Part shown: one piece after another, positions 46,999-55,290 of the stretch
How the letters are laid out: each line of letters begins with the position of its first letter
Numbering within the stretch: the stretch's first letter is position 1
Source of the DNA: Steroidobacteraceae bacterium
GTDB taxonomy: Bacteria > Pseudomonadota > Gammaproteobacteria > Steroidobacterales > Steroidobacteraceae
Length of the DNA stretch: 64,000 nt
Assembly: GCA_019683695.1 (NCBI GenBank)
Contig: JADGHX010000001.1
Location: 1 to 64,000, forward strand
Direction: 5' to 3'
Made by a program: the position numbers and the translations under genes
Notes under the pieces: generated by a model
The model's database searches: none
Seen by the model: the letters and a program-made list of their open reading frames with translations, nothing else
Told to the model about the DNA's origin: nothing

Positions 46999-47229
46999 GC
47001 GCTTGGCTCTCACCTCAATCAGCGTTGCGTCAGGCGCGCCAGAGCGCGCTGGGGCGTCGCGGGTTGACGGTGCTCTTCAGCGAATTGGCCGTCGCAGGGA
47101 AGCAGATTCGTGCGCGGATCGGTGTGTGGCCGCGCCGAGCGTCGCCAATCGCCATCACCTGCCGCTTCGCGCCCGGCACGGCCACGTCCTTCGCTATACT
47201 TCGCGACCGTTTCCCCACGCCGCACCGAC

Positions 47230-50034
47230 ATGACCCCCGCTCCCGATCTCGTCCTCGTCGACGGCTCGTCGTACCTGTACCGGGCGTTCCACGCGCTGCC
47301 CGCGTTCTCGAACTCGCGCGGCGAGCCGACGGGCGCCGTGTTCGGCGTGCTGAACATGCTGCTCAAGTTCGTGAAGGACTACAAACCGCGGCGCATGGCC
47401 GTGGTCTTCGACGCGAGCGGCAGAACGTTCCGCGATGAGCTCTTCGCGGAATACAAGGCGCATCGTTCGCCGATGCCGAACGATCTGCGCCCGCAGATCG
47501 AGCCGCTCATCACGATCCTGCGCGCGCAGGGCCTGCCGGTGCTGCGTGTGGAAGGCGTGGAGGCCGACGACGTCATCGGCACACTCGCGTGCCGTGCGGC
47601 CCGCGCCGGCCAGCGCGTGCTCATCTCCACCGGCGACAAGGACATGGCGCAGCTCGTGGATGGCTCCATCACGCTGATCAACACGATGAGCAACACGGTG
47701 CTTGATCGCGCGGGCGTGAAGGCGAAGTTCGACGTCTATCCCGAGCAGATCATCGACTATCTCGCGCTCGTCGGGGACAGCTCGGACAACATCCCCGGCA
47801 TCGAGAAGGTCGGCCCGAAAACCGCCGCGAAGCTGCTCAACCAGTACGGCACGCTCGATGAGCTGATCGCGCATGTGAACGAAGTGAGCGGCAAGGTGGG
47901 CGAGAACCTGCGTGCGGGCGTGGCCACCCTGGAGCTGTCGCGCAAGCTCGCCACCATCCGGACGGATCTCGAGCTGCCGGGCATCCCGGAGGATCTCGCG
48001 CCCAGCGAGCCGGACATCGAGCAGCTCCGCGCGCTGTACACACGTTACGAGTTGCGCTCGCTGCTTCGTCAGCTCGAAACGACGTATGGAGCATCGGGCG
48101 CCAATGGCTCTGCAGAGACGACCGCGCGCGGCAGCGCTGCCGCTCACGCAGAAGCTACCGGGGAGGCGCACCCCGCGGCATCTGCGGGCGTTGTGGGTCA
48201 GCCCGCTCCCGCGGCCGCGGTGGAACGACGTTACGAGACCCTCACGGAGTGGTCGCAACTCGAGGGTTGGATCGAACGGCTGCGGCAGGCCGAGCTGTTT
48301 TCCTTCTCGCTGGCGACCACGAATCCGGACTACATGAAGGCCGAGATCGTCGGCGTGTCGTTTTGCGCGGGAGAAGCGGGCGTCGCGGCATACGTGCCCC
48401 TCATGCATGACTACGCGGGCGCACCGTCTCAGCTGGATCGCGAGCGCGTGCTCAATGCCCTGAAGCCGCTGCTGGAAGATCCGGAGAGGCCCAAGATGGG
48501 CCATCACCTGAAGTACGACTGGCACGTGCTGCTCAAGTACGGCATCCGGCTCGCGGGCGTGCGGTTCGACAGCATGCTCGAGTCATACGTGCTGAACAGC
48601 GTCGCCACCCGGCACGACCTTGAAACCAGCGCGGATCGGTACCTCGGCGTGAGAACGCTCAAGCTCGAGGATGTGGCCGGCAAGGGTGCAAAGCAGCTCA
48701 CGTTCAACCAGGTGCCGGTCGACCGCGCCGCCGAATACGCCGCTGAAGAAGCGGATATCGCGTACAGGCTTCACTGCGCGCTGTGGCCGCAGATTCAGGC
48801 TGTCCCTGCGCTCGAACGGCTCTACCAGGAAGTGGAGCAGCCGCTCGTGCCCGTGCTCATGCGTATGGAGCAGCGTGGCGTGCTGGTGGATCGCGAGCTG
48901 CTCAAGACACAGAGCCGCGAGATATCCGCTCAGCTCGAGGAGCTGCATGCCGCCGCATGCAAGGAAGCGGGCTACGACATCAACGTGGATTCGCCGAAGC
49001 AGCTTCAGCAGGTTCTTTTCGAGAAGCTGCAGCTCCCCGTGCTGCGCAAGACGCCGACCGGCCAGCCTTCCACCGCTGAAGATGTGCTCGAGGAGCTCGC
49101 GCAGTCCTACGCCCTGCCGCGCATCGTGCTCGACTACCGCGCCCTGGCGAAGCTCAAATCCACGTACACGGACAAGCTGCCGGAGCAGATCAACCCGCGC
49201 ACGGGCCGCATTCACACGAGCTATCACCAGGCCGTGGCGGCCACCGGCCGACTGTCCTCGTCCGATCCGAACCTGCAGAACATCCCGATCCGCCGGGCGG
49301 AAGGGCGCCGCATCCGGCAGGCCTTCATCGCGCCGCCCGGGCACGTGCTGCTCGCCGCGGACTACTCCCAGATCGAGCTGCGCATCATGGCGCACCTGTC
49401 AGGCGATGAGGGGCTGCTGCGGGCTTTCGCAGAAGATCTGGACGTGCATGTGGCGACGGCCGCGGAAGTTTTCGGCGTGCCGCTGGACGCCGTGAGCGAG
49501 GACCAGCGGCGGCTGGCGAAGACCATCAACTTCGGTCTGATTTACGGCATGTCCTCGTTCGGTCTGGCGCGCAACCTCGGCATCGAACGCGGTGCTGCGC
49601 AGAAGTATGTCGAGCGCTACTTCGCCCGCTATCCCGGCGTGAAGCAATTCATGGATCGCACGCGCGTGCAGGCTCGCGAGGTCGGGTACGTGGAAACCGT
49701 GTTCGGCAGGCGCCTTTACCTGCCAGACATCCGCTCCGGCAACAAACAAATGCAGCAGTACGCGGAGCGCAGCGCCATCAACGCCCCCATGCAGGGCACG
49801 GCAGCGGACATCATCAAGCGCGCCATGATCGAAGTGGACGCCTGGTGCGAGCGCGACGAAGTGCCCGCGCGGCTCATCATGCAAGTGCACGATGAGCTTG
49901 TGTTCGAAGTGCCACAGCACGCCGTTGACGCGGTGAGGAACGGCATCCGCGAGCGCATGGTGCAGGCCGCCGAACTGAAAGTCCCGCTTCGCGTGGACAT
50001 CGGCGTCGGGGCGAACTGGGACGAAGCCCACTAG
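47230..50034 (+). CDS. polA: DNA polymerase I
   Basis: 5'-exonuclease, 3'-5' exonuclease-like and polymerase domains; DYSQIELRIMAHLSGD, RRLAKTINFGLIYGMSSFGLA, QVHDELVFEVP. Confidence 0.98.
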   Translation: MTPAPDLVLVDGSSYLYRAFHALPAFSNSRGEPTGAVFGVLNMLLKFVKDYKPRRMAVVFDASGRTFRDELFAEYKAHRSPMPNDLRPQIEPLITILRAQGLPVLRVEGVEADDVIGTLACRAARAGQRVLISTGDKDMAQLVDGSITLINTMSNTVLDRAGVKAKFDVYPEQIIDYLALVGDSSDNIPGIEKVGPKTAAKLLNQYGTLDELIAHVNEVSGKVGENLRAGVATLELSRKLATIRTDLELPGIPEDLAPSEPDIEQLRALYTRYELRSLLRQLETTYGASGANGSAETTARGSAAAHAEATGEAHPAASAGVVGQPAPAAAVERRYETLTEWSQLEGWIERLRQAELFSFSLATTNPDYMKAEIVGVSFCAGEAGVAAYVPLMHDYAGAPSQLDRERVLNALKPLLEDPERPKMGHHLKYDWHVLLKYGIRLAGVRFDSMLESYVLNSVATRHDLETSADRYLGVRTLKLEDVAGKGAKQLTFNQVPVDRAAEYAAEEADIAYRLHCALWPQIQAVPALERLYQEVEQPLVPVLMRMEQRGVLVDRELLKTQSREISAQLEELHAAACKEAGYDINVDSPKQLQQVLFEKLQLPVLRKTPTGQPSTAEDVLEELAQSYALPRIVLDYRALAKLKSTYTDKLPEQINPRTGRIHTSYHQAVAATGRLSSSDPNLQNIPIRRAEGRRIRQAFIAPPGHVLLAADYSQIELRIMAHLSGDEGLLRAFAEDLDVHVATAAEVFGVPLDAVSEDQRRLAKTINFGLIYGMSSFGLARNLGIERGAAQKYVERYFARYPGVKQFMDRTRVQAREVGYVETVFGRRLYLPDIRSGNKQMQQYAERSAINAPMQGTAADIIKRAMIEVDAWCERDEVPARLIMQVHDELVFEVPQHAVDAVRNGIRERMVQAAELKVPLRVDIGVGANWDEAH

Positions 50035-50202: not shown

Positions 50203-50757
50203 ATGCGAATTCCATTGCCCGCGGTCCTGCTCGCACTGGCCGGCACGGCCGCCCATGCGGCGGATAACGGGTTCTATCTTGGCGCCGGCGTGACCCAGGT
50301 GAAGCTCGACGATATCGGGCAGGACTTCGACACCGGGAGCATCGGCAACTTCAAGATCGACGACACGTCGTGGAAGCTCATCGCGGGCTTCCGCCCGCTC
50401 GACCACTTCGCCGTCGAGTTCAACTACATGGATCTCGGCAGCGAGAGCCGCAACATCGGCGGGGTGCAGTTCGATGCGGATGGCAAGGCGTATGCCGGCT
50501 ATCTGGTCGGGTTTCTGCCCATCACGCTCATCGACCTGTATGCGAAGGCCGGGCTCGTGCAGTGGGAAGGCGATGCGCGCGGCCGAGGCCCGCTGAACTT
50601 CGATTTCGATGAGGACGGTACCGAATTCGGTTACGGGTTTGGCGTGCAGGCGCGTCTTGGAAGTCTGGCAGGACGCCTCGAGTACGAGCGCTTCGACGTG
50701 GACGGAACGGATGGCGTGGAGCTCCTGACGCTCGGCGCCACCTGGACCTTCCTGTAG
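50203..50757 (+). CDS. Outer-membrane beta-barrel protein (OmpA/OmpX-like barrel)
   Basis: Signal peptide ...TAAHAADNGFYLGAGVTQVKLDD; beta-strand periodicity; C-terminal aromatic ATWTFL. Confidence 0.85.
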   Translation: MRIPLPAVLLALAGTAAHAADNGFYLGAGVTQVKLDDIGQDFDTGSIGNFKIDDTSWKLIAGFRPLDHFAVEFNYMDLGSESRNIGGVQFDADGKAYAGYLVGFLPITLIDLYAKAGLVQWEGDARGRGPLNFDFDEDGTEFGYGFGVQARLGSLAGRLEYERFDVDGTDGVELLTLGATWTFL

Positions 50758-50809
50758 CGCCGTACCAACAGGGCGACGCTCAAGGCGCTGATCTACTTAG
50801 GGAAGTTTC

Positions 50810-50966
50810 TTCCGAAATGTTCGGAACTTCAGCGGAGGTGGTTCGTCTAACCTCGCGAGTGCCACGGCACTCCCCGCTTCCCTCCCTGAGCGGGTCAACC
50901 CGGTTCATGAGACCTGTGCCGGGTTAGTCTGCCCCGGTGATCTCCACGAGGTCGCCGGGGTTTTTT
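50810..50966 (+). ncRNA. Candidate trans-acting sRNA in the polA-engB interval (positional analogue of Spot 42 / ErsA / sX13)
   Basis: Hairpins: TTCCGAA-ATG-TTCGGAA (50810-50826), GAGTGC-CACG-GCACTC (50857-50872), CCCGCT-TCCCTCCCTG-AGCGGG (50873-50894; C-rich loop), AACCCGG-N15-CCGGGTT (50897-50925), then an intrinsic terminator (50932-50966). The 5' end is not determined. Confidence 0.55.
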
Positions 50967-51553
50967 ATTCCCTTGAGAAACGCGAGCAGCACGCGCTGTG
51001 CCTCGGCCGCTCCGGTTTTGTCGAGCGAGGAGAAGAGCTGAGCGGTCGCGATGCCGGAGAGCTGCGCATTCGCCTCGCGCAGCGCCCGGGTGCTCTCGCT
51101 GCGATTGAGCTTGTCGGCTTTGGACAGCAGCACGTGCACCGGCAGGTCGCGCCCGCCGGCCCGCGCCCATTCGATCAGCGCATGGTCCTCGCGGCCGAGC
51201 CCGCGCCGGGCGTCGACGATGAGCACGAGACCTCGCAGGCTTTGCCGCTCCCGCAGCGCGTTGATGAGCGGAGCCCACGTGCGCCGCTCCTCTTCCGGAG
51301 CCGCGGCGTACCCGTAGCCCGGCAGATCCACGATGCGCTTCTGCTCCCCCACCGAAAAGAAGTTCAGCAGCCGGGTGCGGCCGGGGGTCTTGCTCACGCG
51401 GGCCAGACCGTTCCGCTGCAGCAGCGTGTTGATGGCGCTCGATTTGCCCGCGTTCGAGCGCCCGGCAAAGGCCACCTCCGCGCCGTGGTCGGGCGGAAAG
51501 TGCGCCGGCTGGGCCGCGCTCAGCAGGAACTGGACATTCGGGAATACGCTCAC
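50924..51553 (-). CDS. engB: Ribosome biogenesis GTP-binding protein YihA/EngB
   Basis: GAEVAFAGRSNAGKSSAINTLLQRNGLARVSKTPGRTRLLNFF...VDLPGYGYAAAPEEERRTW...LSKADKLNRSE; GTG start chosen at 51553. Confidence 0.94.
   Translation of the reverse strand: MSVFPNVQFLLSAAQPAHFPPDHGAEVAFAGRSNAGKSSAINTLLQRNGLARVSKTPGRTRLLNFFSVGEQKRIVDLPGYGYAAAPEEERRTWAPLINALRERQSLRGLVLIVDARRGLGREDHALIEWARAGGRDLPVHVLLSKADKLNRSESTRALREANAQLSGIATAQLFSSLDKTGAAEAQRVLLAFLKGIKNPGDLVEITGAD
50932..50966 (+). terminator. Strong intrinsic terminator, antisense within the engB 3' coding end
   Basis: CCCCGGTGATCTC-CAC-GAGGTCGCCGGGG (13 bp with G-U pairs) followed by TTTTTT. Confidence 0.88.
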
Positions 51554-51643
51554 GGTTGCCGATGGGGCCTCGAGCAGCTCAGGCAATTCAGTAGTGTACA
51601 ATTCGCCGCCCTTCGCACCGGCGGATATGCGGAAAGACGAGAA

Positions 51644-54566: not shown

Positions 54567-54584
54567 AACAAATCCTGCAGGATT
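54567..54584 (-). terminator. Possible weak terminator hairpin just 3' of tRNA-Arg
   Basis: Perfect palindrome AATCCTGCAGGATT (54571-54584), then TGTTT on the minus strand. Confidence 0.45.
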
Positions 54585-54660
54585 GGCGCGCCCGACTGGA
54601 TTCGAACCAGCGACCTGCAGCTTCGGAGGCTGCCACTCTATCCATCTGAGCTACGGGCGC
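54584..54660 (-). tRNA. tRNA-Arg (anticodon CCG), CCA encoded
   Basis: Reverse complement GCGCCCGTAGCTCAGATGGATAGAGTGGCAGCCTCCGAAGCTGCAGGTCGCTGGTTCGAATCCAGTCGGGCGCGCCA; anticodon loop CTCCGAA; 7-bp acceptor stem. Confidence 0.97.
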
Positions 54661-54747: not shown

Positions 54748-55290
54748 GAGCCTCATCCGGCCTGAAGACGGCTACAACAGGATCCCACGGCCGCAACAGA
54801 GATGAGCGGCGAGGTGGGGCGTCGCGAGGTGGCGTGGACTGTCTGGAGTCGGCACCTGACTGCCGGGACTGAGCGGCAAATCCGCCCGCGCGGAGAACCG
54901 GAGCCTGCGGACCTGAAGACGGCACGGATACGCAAGATCCCGCGAGCCGCACAAATTGAGCCGCGAGCCGGCGTCGCACGTGAGCGTGGGCCTGCTGTGG
55001 TCGGCGCCCGACTTGCGCGAACCGGGCGGCCGTTCCGCACGCGCGGAAAGCCGGAGCCTGCGGACCTGAAGACGGCACGGATACGCAAGATCCCGCGAGC
55101 CGCACAAATTGAGCCGCGAGCCGGCGTCGCACGTGAGCGTGGGCCTGCTGTGGTCGGCGCCCGACTTGCGCGAACTAGGCGGCCGTTTTCCGCACGCGCG
55201 GAGAGCCGAGGGCCTCTAGGCCTCAACACATCACGGGTACGCAGATCCCGAAGCCGCACAGAGTGAGGTACGAGGTGATGTGAGCGTGCG
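54748..55290. repeat. 153-bp tandem repeat array, about 3.5 copies (two near-identical internal copies, degenerate flanking copies)
   Basis: gagcctgcggacctgaagacggcacggatacgcaagatcccgcgagccgcacaaattgagccgcgagccggcgtcgcacgtgagcgtgggcctgctgtggtcggcgcccgacttgcgcgaa occurs at 54901 and 55054; degenerate copies begin at 54748 and about 55209. Confidence 0.93.

Follow-up and report, generated by a model that had tools for sequence, protein, structure and literature searches.

Positions 50856-50966 (+ strand) of the window, the whole 64,000-nucleotide stretch of Steroidobacteraceae DNA analysed here (contig JADGHX010000001.1), probably carry a free-standing regulatory small RNA gene that would be transcribed by RpoE and whose C-rich loop would pair with G-rich Shine-Dalgarno regions and lower translation. 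A conserved promoter, four covarying hairpins, a nearly invariant C-rich loop, a terminator and conservation next to the 3' end of engB in Beta- and Gammaproteobacteria can all be read directly from the sequence. The gene belongs to a known Rfam family, RF02837 (anti-hemB), with a sigma-E-type promoter and a covarying 5' hairpin that lie beyond the Rfam match. No paper giving RF02837 a sigma-E-type promoter, or tying it to sX13 or ErsA, was found in the open-licence literature. The source organism groups with Steroidobacteraceae in a PolA tree. The features of the locus are as follows.

47110-50034, + strand: polA, upstream and co-directional (open reading frame, start codon uncertain; DNA_pol_A 1.6e-163)
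50203-50757, + strand: outer-membrane beta-barrel protein gene, between polA and the small RNA (Pfam OMP_b-brl 1.1e-14)
50823-50850, + strand: predicted sigma-E/AlgU-type promoter, -35 GGAACTT at 50823-50829, 16-nt spacer, -10 TCTAA at 50846-50850
50856-50966, + strand: predicted small RNA of about 111 nt, 5' end placed from the promoter and 3' end from the terminator
50857-50872, + strand: 5' hairpin H1, 6 pairs, loop CACG, outside engB (fold and covariation)
50873-50894, + strand: hairpin H2, C-rich loop CCCUCCCU at 50880-50887, proposed target-pairing site
50897-50925, + strand: hairpin H3, overlapping the engB stop codon of the other strand (fold and covariation)
50931-50966, + strand: intrinsic terminator, H4 plus T6, antisense within the 3' coding sequence of engB
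50924-51607, - strand: engB, a GTPase of ribosome biogenesis, which converges on the small RNA and anchors the family's position (open reading frame limits; Pfam MMR_HSR1 1.9e-17)

The barrel gene is found at the equivalent place in many close relatives and could possibly be linked in function to an envelope-stress small RNA. Elsewhere in the window, a tRNA-Arg(ccg) gene (54584-54660) lies close to a 153-bp tandem repeat (54861-55267, about 2.5 copies, the first two 93% identical).

The four hairpins stand back to back with hardly any residue unpaired between them. The fold of 50856-50966 reaches -61.2 kcal/mol against -39.5 +/- 3.6 for dinucleotide shuffles (z = -6.0, 0/200). H2 folds with 7 pairs and an 8-nt loop and holds the only C-rich loop of the element. 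A first-pass annotation, made from the letters alone, had already described a chain of + strand hairpins including a CCCGCT/AGCGGG stem that presents a pyrimidine loop, and this stem is indeed present at 50873-50894. It had also described a strong intrinsic terminator with T6 at 50961-50966, which both the terminator scan and the fold recover, the stem (50931-50961) counting 14 pairs by the scan instead of 13. engB ends at 50924 on the - strand, so that its stop codon (TAA, 50924-50926) overlaps the 3' arm of H3 and the terminator falls inside its coding sequence; the open reading frame limits thus bear out both of the positions given earlier. The annotated interval began at 50790, but the transcript most likely begins near 50855-50858, and the promoter at 50823-50850 and the covarying fourth hairpin at 50857-50872 had escaped that annotation. 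The H3 loop (about 50905-50917) reads GAGACCU in the window and in several of its nearest kin, and other relatives carry a CCCC loop in its place; this difference may possibly correspond to the switch of a second pairing site.

Compensatory changes support the fold. When 29 relatives are aligned with MAFFT, 91.5% of the cells pair against 82.8% in shuffles, with 73 two-sided changes against 20, and slid controls all fall far below the observed pairing. RNAalifold missed H3 on this alignment as a result of misalignment; a hand-written structure was used instead, and the sequences were fitted to it by realignment. The model-fitted alignment (30 relatives) gives 95.8% pairing and 103 cells changed on both sides, counts which the realignment biases in favour of the fold; with the unfitted MAFFT alignment the verdict does not change. 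Among the listed matches of a species-genome scan, 78 distinct rows show 93.5% pairing and 569 cells changed on both sides, only H1, H3 and H4 being independent there since the set was picked by the promoter and part of H2. In each of the four helices, no shuffle and no slid control reaches the observed covariation. All five modelled pairs of H1 changed on both sides, in the relatives as well as in the beta- and gammaproteobacterial scan set. For H2, whose covariation the first-pass annotation had proposed as a check, the relatives show compensatory changes at 5 of the 6 pairs around nearly invariant CTCCCT loop columns. The corresponding figures are 5/7 (relatives) and 7/7 (wider scan set) for H3 and 8/12 (relatives) for H4. 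H1 and H2 lie outside engB, so codon constraint does not explain their covariation; H4 and part of H3 overlap the gene and provide weaker evidence.

The RF02837 model matches the window over 50871-50968 with 56.7 bits (gathering score 49.5; model positions 1-81 of 81; E = 1.4e-10 in the whole-window search), and the organism's own genome carries this single copy. At E <= 0.001 a match is present in 34 of the 40 relatives and, across the class, in 168 of the 369 genomes sampled, 21 of which score above the gathering threshold. The earlier view of a lineage-specific RNA has to be abandoned, since the match lies above the RF02837 cut-off and the family is widespread in the class. By comparison, the sX13 model RF02232 gives the window 31.0 bits, below its gathering score of 50, and neither RF01719 (Pseudomon-1/ErsA, up to E = 10) nor RF02278 (Betaproteobacterial toxic sRNA, bdhR1) matches it. 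A covariance model made from the window's relatives (hereafter R2) scores 105 bits over 50855-50968, as expected by construction.

Several loci of the sample show particular arrangements. At L190 (G208), L191 (G300), L192 (G186), L158 (G358) and L155 (G299) the small RNA is repeated in tandem, with two to five copies per array. The L191 copies also give weak scores with the betaproteobacterial toxic sRNA model. The four tandem copies of L190 give sub-threshold scores on the anti-hemB, sX13, ErsA and ar14 models; one of them (L190:1602-1704, - strand) reaches 38 bits with ar14, an alphaproteobacterial model, a hint of similarity to alphaproteobacterial C-rich-loop small RNAs. The top RF02837 score of the class sample (65.7 bits) belongs to L150 (G145:C1:4219089-4219176), whose flank contains neither engB nor a sigma-E-type promoter, as if this copy had moved elsewhere and been rewired; this locus speaks against the proposed reading.

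The exact promoter motif GGAACTT-N15-17-TCTRA occurs twice in the 5.18-Mb genome, the second match lying inside a coding frame. At loci of the order picked through the RNA model alone, GGAACTT-N16-TCNNA recurs at a fixed distance upstream, with scores of at least 9/11 in 29 of 30 against 69 of 1500 shuffles. Class-wide, 62 of 79 loci score at least 9 at the expected position, compared with 1% of shuffles and with 0/79 for a control shifted further upstream. The same genome carries rpoE (292 bits, TIGR02939) followed by frames resembling rseA and rseB, and upstream of this rpoE stands TGAACTT-N16-TCTAT, of the same architecture as the small RNA promoter, as would be expected of an autoregulated sigma-E gene. 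The likeness between the two promoters, together with the match of GGAACTT-N16-TCTAA to the known RpoE/AlgU consensus, suggests that RpoE drives the small RNA. It is unlikely that the element is a C-rich-loop small RNA whose promoter is served by another ECF factor or a housekeeping sigma factor, outside the envelope-stress response. In favour of that possibility, the RpoE model finds 22 matches in the genome, all but one of them below the cut-off and probably representing other ECF factors, and sX13 loci have no sigma-E-type promoter. However, the small RNA promoter carries the RpoE/AlgU signature at a conserved distance, the same arrangement precedes the organism's own rpoE operon, and a sigma-70 promoter was rejected for the small RNA after a scan for one came out empty.

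A scan of species genomes with a pattern combining the promoter and CCTCCCTRRGCG returned at least 119 stretches. Among the matches listed, EngB is convergent within 700 nt in 90 of the 102 loci with enough flank, HemB lies upstream on the opposite strand in 74 of 119 and PolA upstream in 23 of 98. Two pattern matches, L097 and L110, are unmatched by R2, and L110, from a Sphingomonas record, was taken as a chance match. Gammaproteobacterial copies usually sit between polA and engB (Steroidobacteraceae and Wenzhouxiangella, for example) and betaproteobacterial copies between hemB and engB (for example Aromatoleum toluvorans, L038, and Nitrosospira briensis, L039). Of the 78 loci in the class-wide RF02837 set, 45 have a convergent EngB and 45 an upstream PolA; about one third of the set has no EngB in the flank retrieved, so the engB linkage is common and not universal. 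The 3' end of engB is the constant feature, and the name anti-hemB describes a single neighbourhood: hemB, which gave RF02837 its name, is no part of the family's defining covariance model.

These neighbourhoods bear on two further explanations. The hairpins could merely be the untranslated 3' end and the terminator of a transcript of the barrel-protein gene or polA, and have neither a promoter nor a regulatory role of their own. The region does follow the barrel gene immediately, is read from the same strand and closes with a terminator. However, the promoter, the 5' hairpin and the C-rich hairpin are kept behind different upstream genes: the barrel gene, polA by itself or hemB pointing away. 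Most betaproteobacterial loci have hemB upstream on the opposite strand, from which read-through could not yield the small RNA. This explanation is highly improbable. It is also very unlikely that the element acts mainly as a cis-antisense regulator of engB, the convergent transcript overlapping the 3' end of the gene and controlling its mRNA by forming a duplex or through colliding polymerases. The last engB codons do lie opposite H4 and part of H3, and no neighbourhood is conserved as well as the place beside the engB 3' end; yet what is conserved best, H1 and H2 with its loop, falls outside that gene, antisense action needs no invariant CTCCCT loop, and engB is on the other side or further off in L149, L179, L182, L190, L199 and L225.

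The earlier proposal of a C-rich-loop small RNA of the polA-engB positional class, ending in an intrinsic terminator, is supported by these results, and the nearest known small RNAs can be compared with it in turn. RF02837 itself (Burkholderia RNA 7; ncS04 of B. cenocepacia) has the three 3' hairpins and the CCCUCCCU loop in common with the window, and its betaproteobacterial loci adjoin the 3' end of engB as here. They differ in their upstream neighbours, which here are polA and the barrel-protein gene and not hemB, and both the covarying 5' hairpin and the sigma-E-type promoter fall outside the Rfam match, which begins at 50871. The literature searched yielded neither a promoter type nor a target for anti-hemB. 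ncS04 showed no significant change under any tested condition (PMC5688073), a point against the proposed mechanism. sX13 of Xanthomonas (RF02232) resembles the window element in its place 3' of polA, its successive hairpins and its C-rich loops, although it has three such loops (PMC3771888) instead of one and its loci lack the sigma-E-type promoter. Its C-rich loops repress mRNAs carrying G-rich motifs near the start, in an Hfq-independent manner, and its authors raised the question of related small RNAs at the polA locus of other bacteria (PMC3771888). Three bona fide sX13 loci, which score 103-125 bits with RF02232, are recovered by R2 with E values of 2.1e-6 to 2.4e-7, at their exact position 3' of polA.

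ErsA of Pseudomonas (RF01719, Pseudomon-1) shares with the window an AlgU/RpoE-type promoter and the interval between polA and engB (PMC8575079), and is reported to be strictly sigma-22-dependent (PMC7565897). The ErsA locus examined (121.3 bits, RF01719) carries TGAACTT-N17-TCATA and lies 104 nt past the PolA match; it is unmatched by R2, and EngB was not detected in the flank retrieved. Four loci of the RF02837 group (L153, L160, L190 and L214) give weak scores on the ErsA model. Spot 42 (spf, E. coli; 111 nt), under CRP control, also lies between polA and yihA/engB, and its locus gives no match to R2. It requires Hfq (PMC3771888). The CU-rich single-stranded sites of bdhR1 (RF02278) and Bordetella S17 pair with ribosome-binding sites (PMC5688073, PMC11722255), but both are encoded at other loci; S17 adjoins coq7, has a sigma-A promoter and is processed by RNase E (PMC11722255). 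Of the three relatives named in the first-pass annotation, then, sX13 holds, its homology being detected by R2 and common descent being supported; common descent with ErsA is suggested by locus and promoter type, while the likeness of Spot 42 is one of locus only. On balance we lean slightly towards a single ancestral sigma-E-driven C-rich-loop small RNA that would have become fixed beside engB before the split of Beta- and Gammaproteobacteria. anti-hemB, sX13 and, less certainly, ErsA would be its descendants, with the promoter (sX13), the neighbour (hemB or polA) and the loops rewired in each lineage.

In the proposed mechanism, envelope stress would free RpoE from its anti-sigma factor and RpoE would transcribe the small RNA, whose CCCUCCCU loop may pair with GGGAGGG-like G-rich Shine-Dalgarno regions of target mRNAs in trans. 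Pairing would block ribosome binding, and under envelope stress a set of proteins would be made in smaller amounts. Control would thus be ErsA-like (sigma-22-driven, polA-engB) and action sX13-like (a C-rich loop against G-rich ribosome-binding sites). Candidate targets were sampled by pattern. AGGGAGG-N3-12-ATG occurs at 48 sites in the organism's own genome and the reversed pattern at 16, an excess for which ordinary Shine-Dalgarno signals suffice. Thirty AGGGAGG-type sites were inspected, many of which open only short frames; the candidates include a TonB-dependent receptor and a lipoprotein-like protein. At TonB-receptor loci of the same genome GGGAGG precedes the candidate start in 3 of the 30 inspected, with no clear enrichment. 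Recurrent target families are nearly absent across 24 genomes, a three-member TonB-receptor cluster being the only one. Signal peptides are predicted for 22 of 43 genes whose ribosome-binding site carries AGGGAGGG and for 11 of 30 with a control Shine-Dalgarno (one-sided p = 0.16, crude predictor), so that no target class is established.

Several small RNAs of this engB-side spot had been described separately, and anti-hemB, sX13 and probably ErsA are now tied together, which answers the question of the sX13 authors on polA-locus small RNAs for much of the Beta- and Gammaproteobacteria. RF02837 gains a testable control circuit through the envelope-stress sigma factor. No sigma-E small RNA was found for Steroidobacteraceae, Rhodocyclaceae or Nitrosospira in the literature searched; if confirmed, these groups, among others, would possess an ancient, positionally fixed one. 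If the common-ancestor reading is true, the gene would rank among the most widespread envelope-stress small RNAs.
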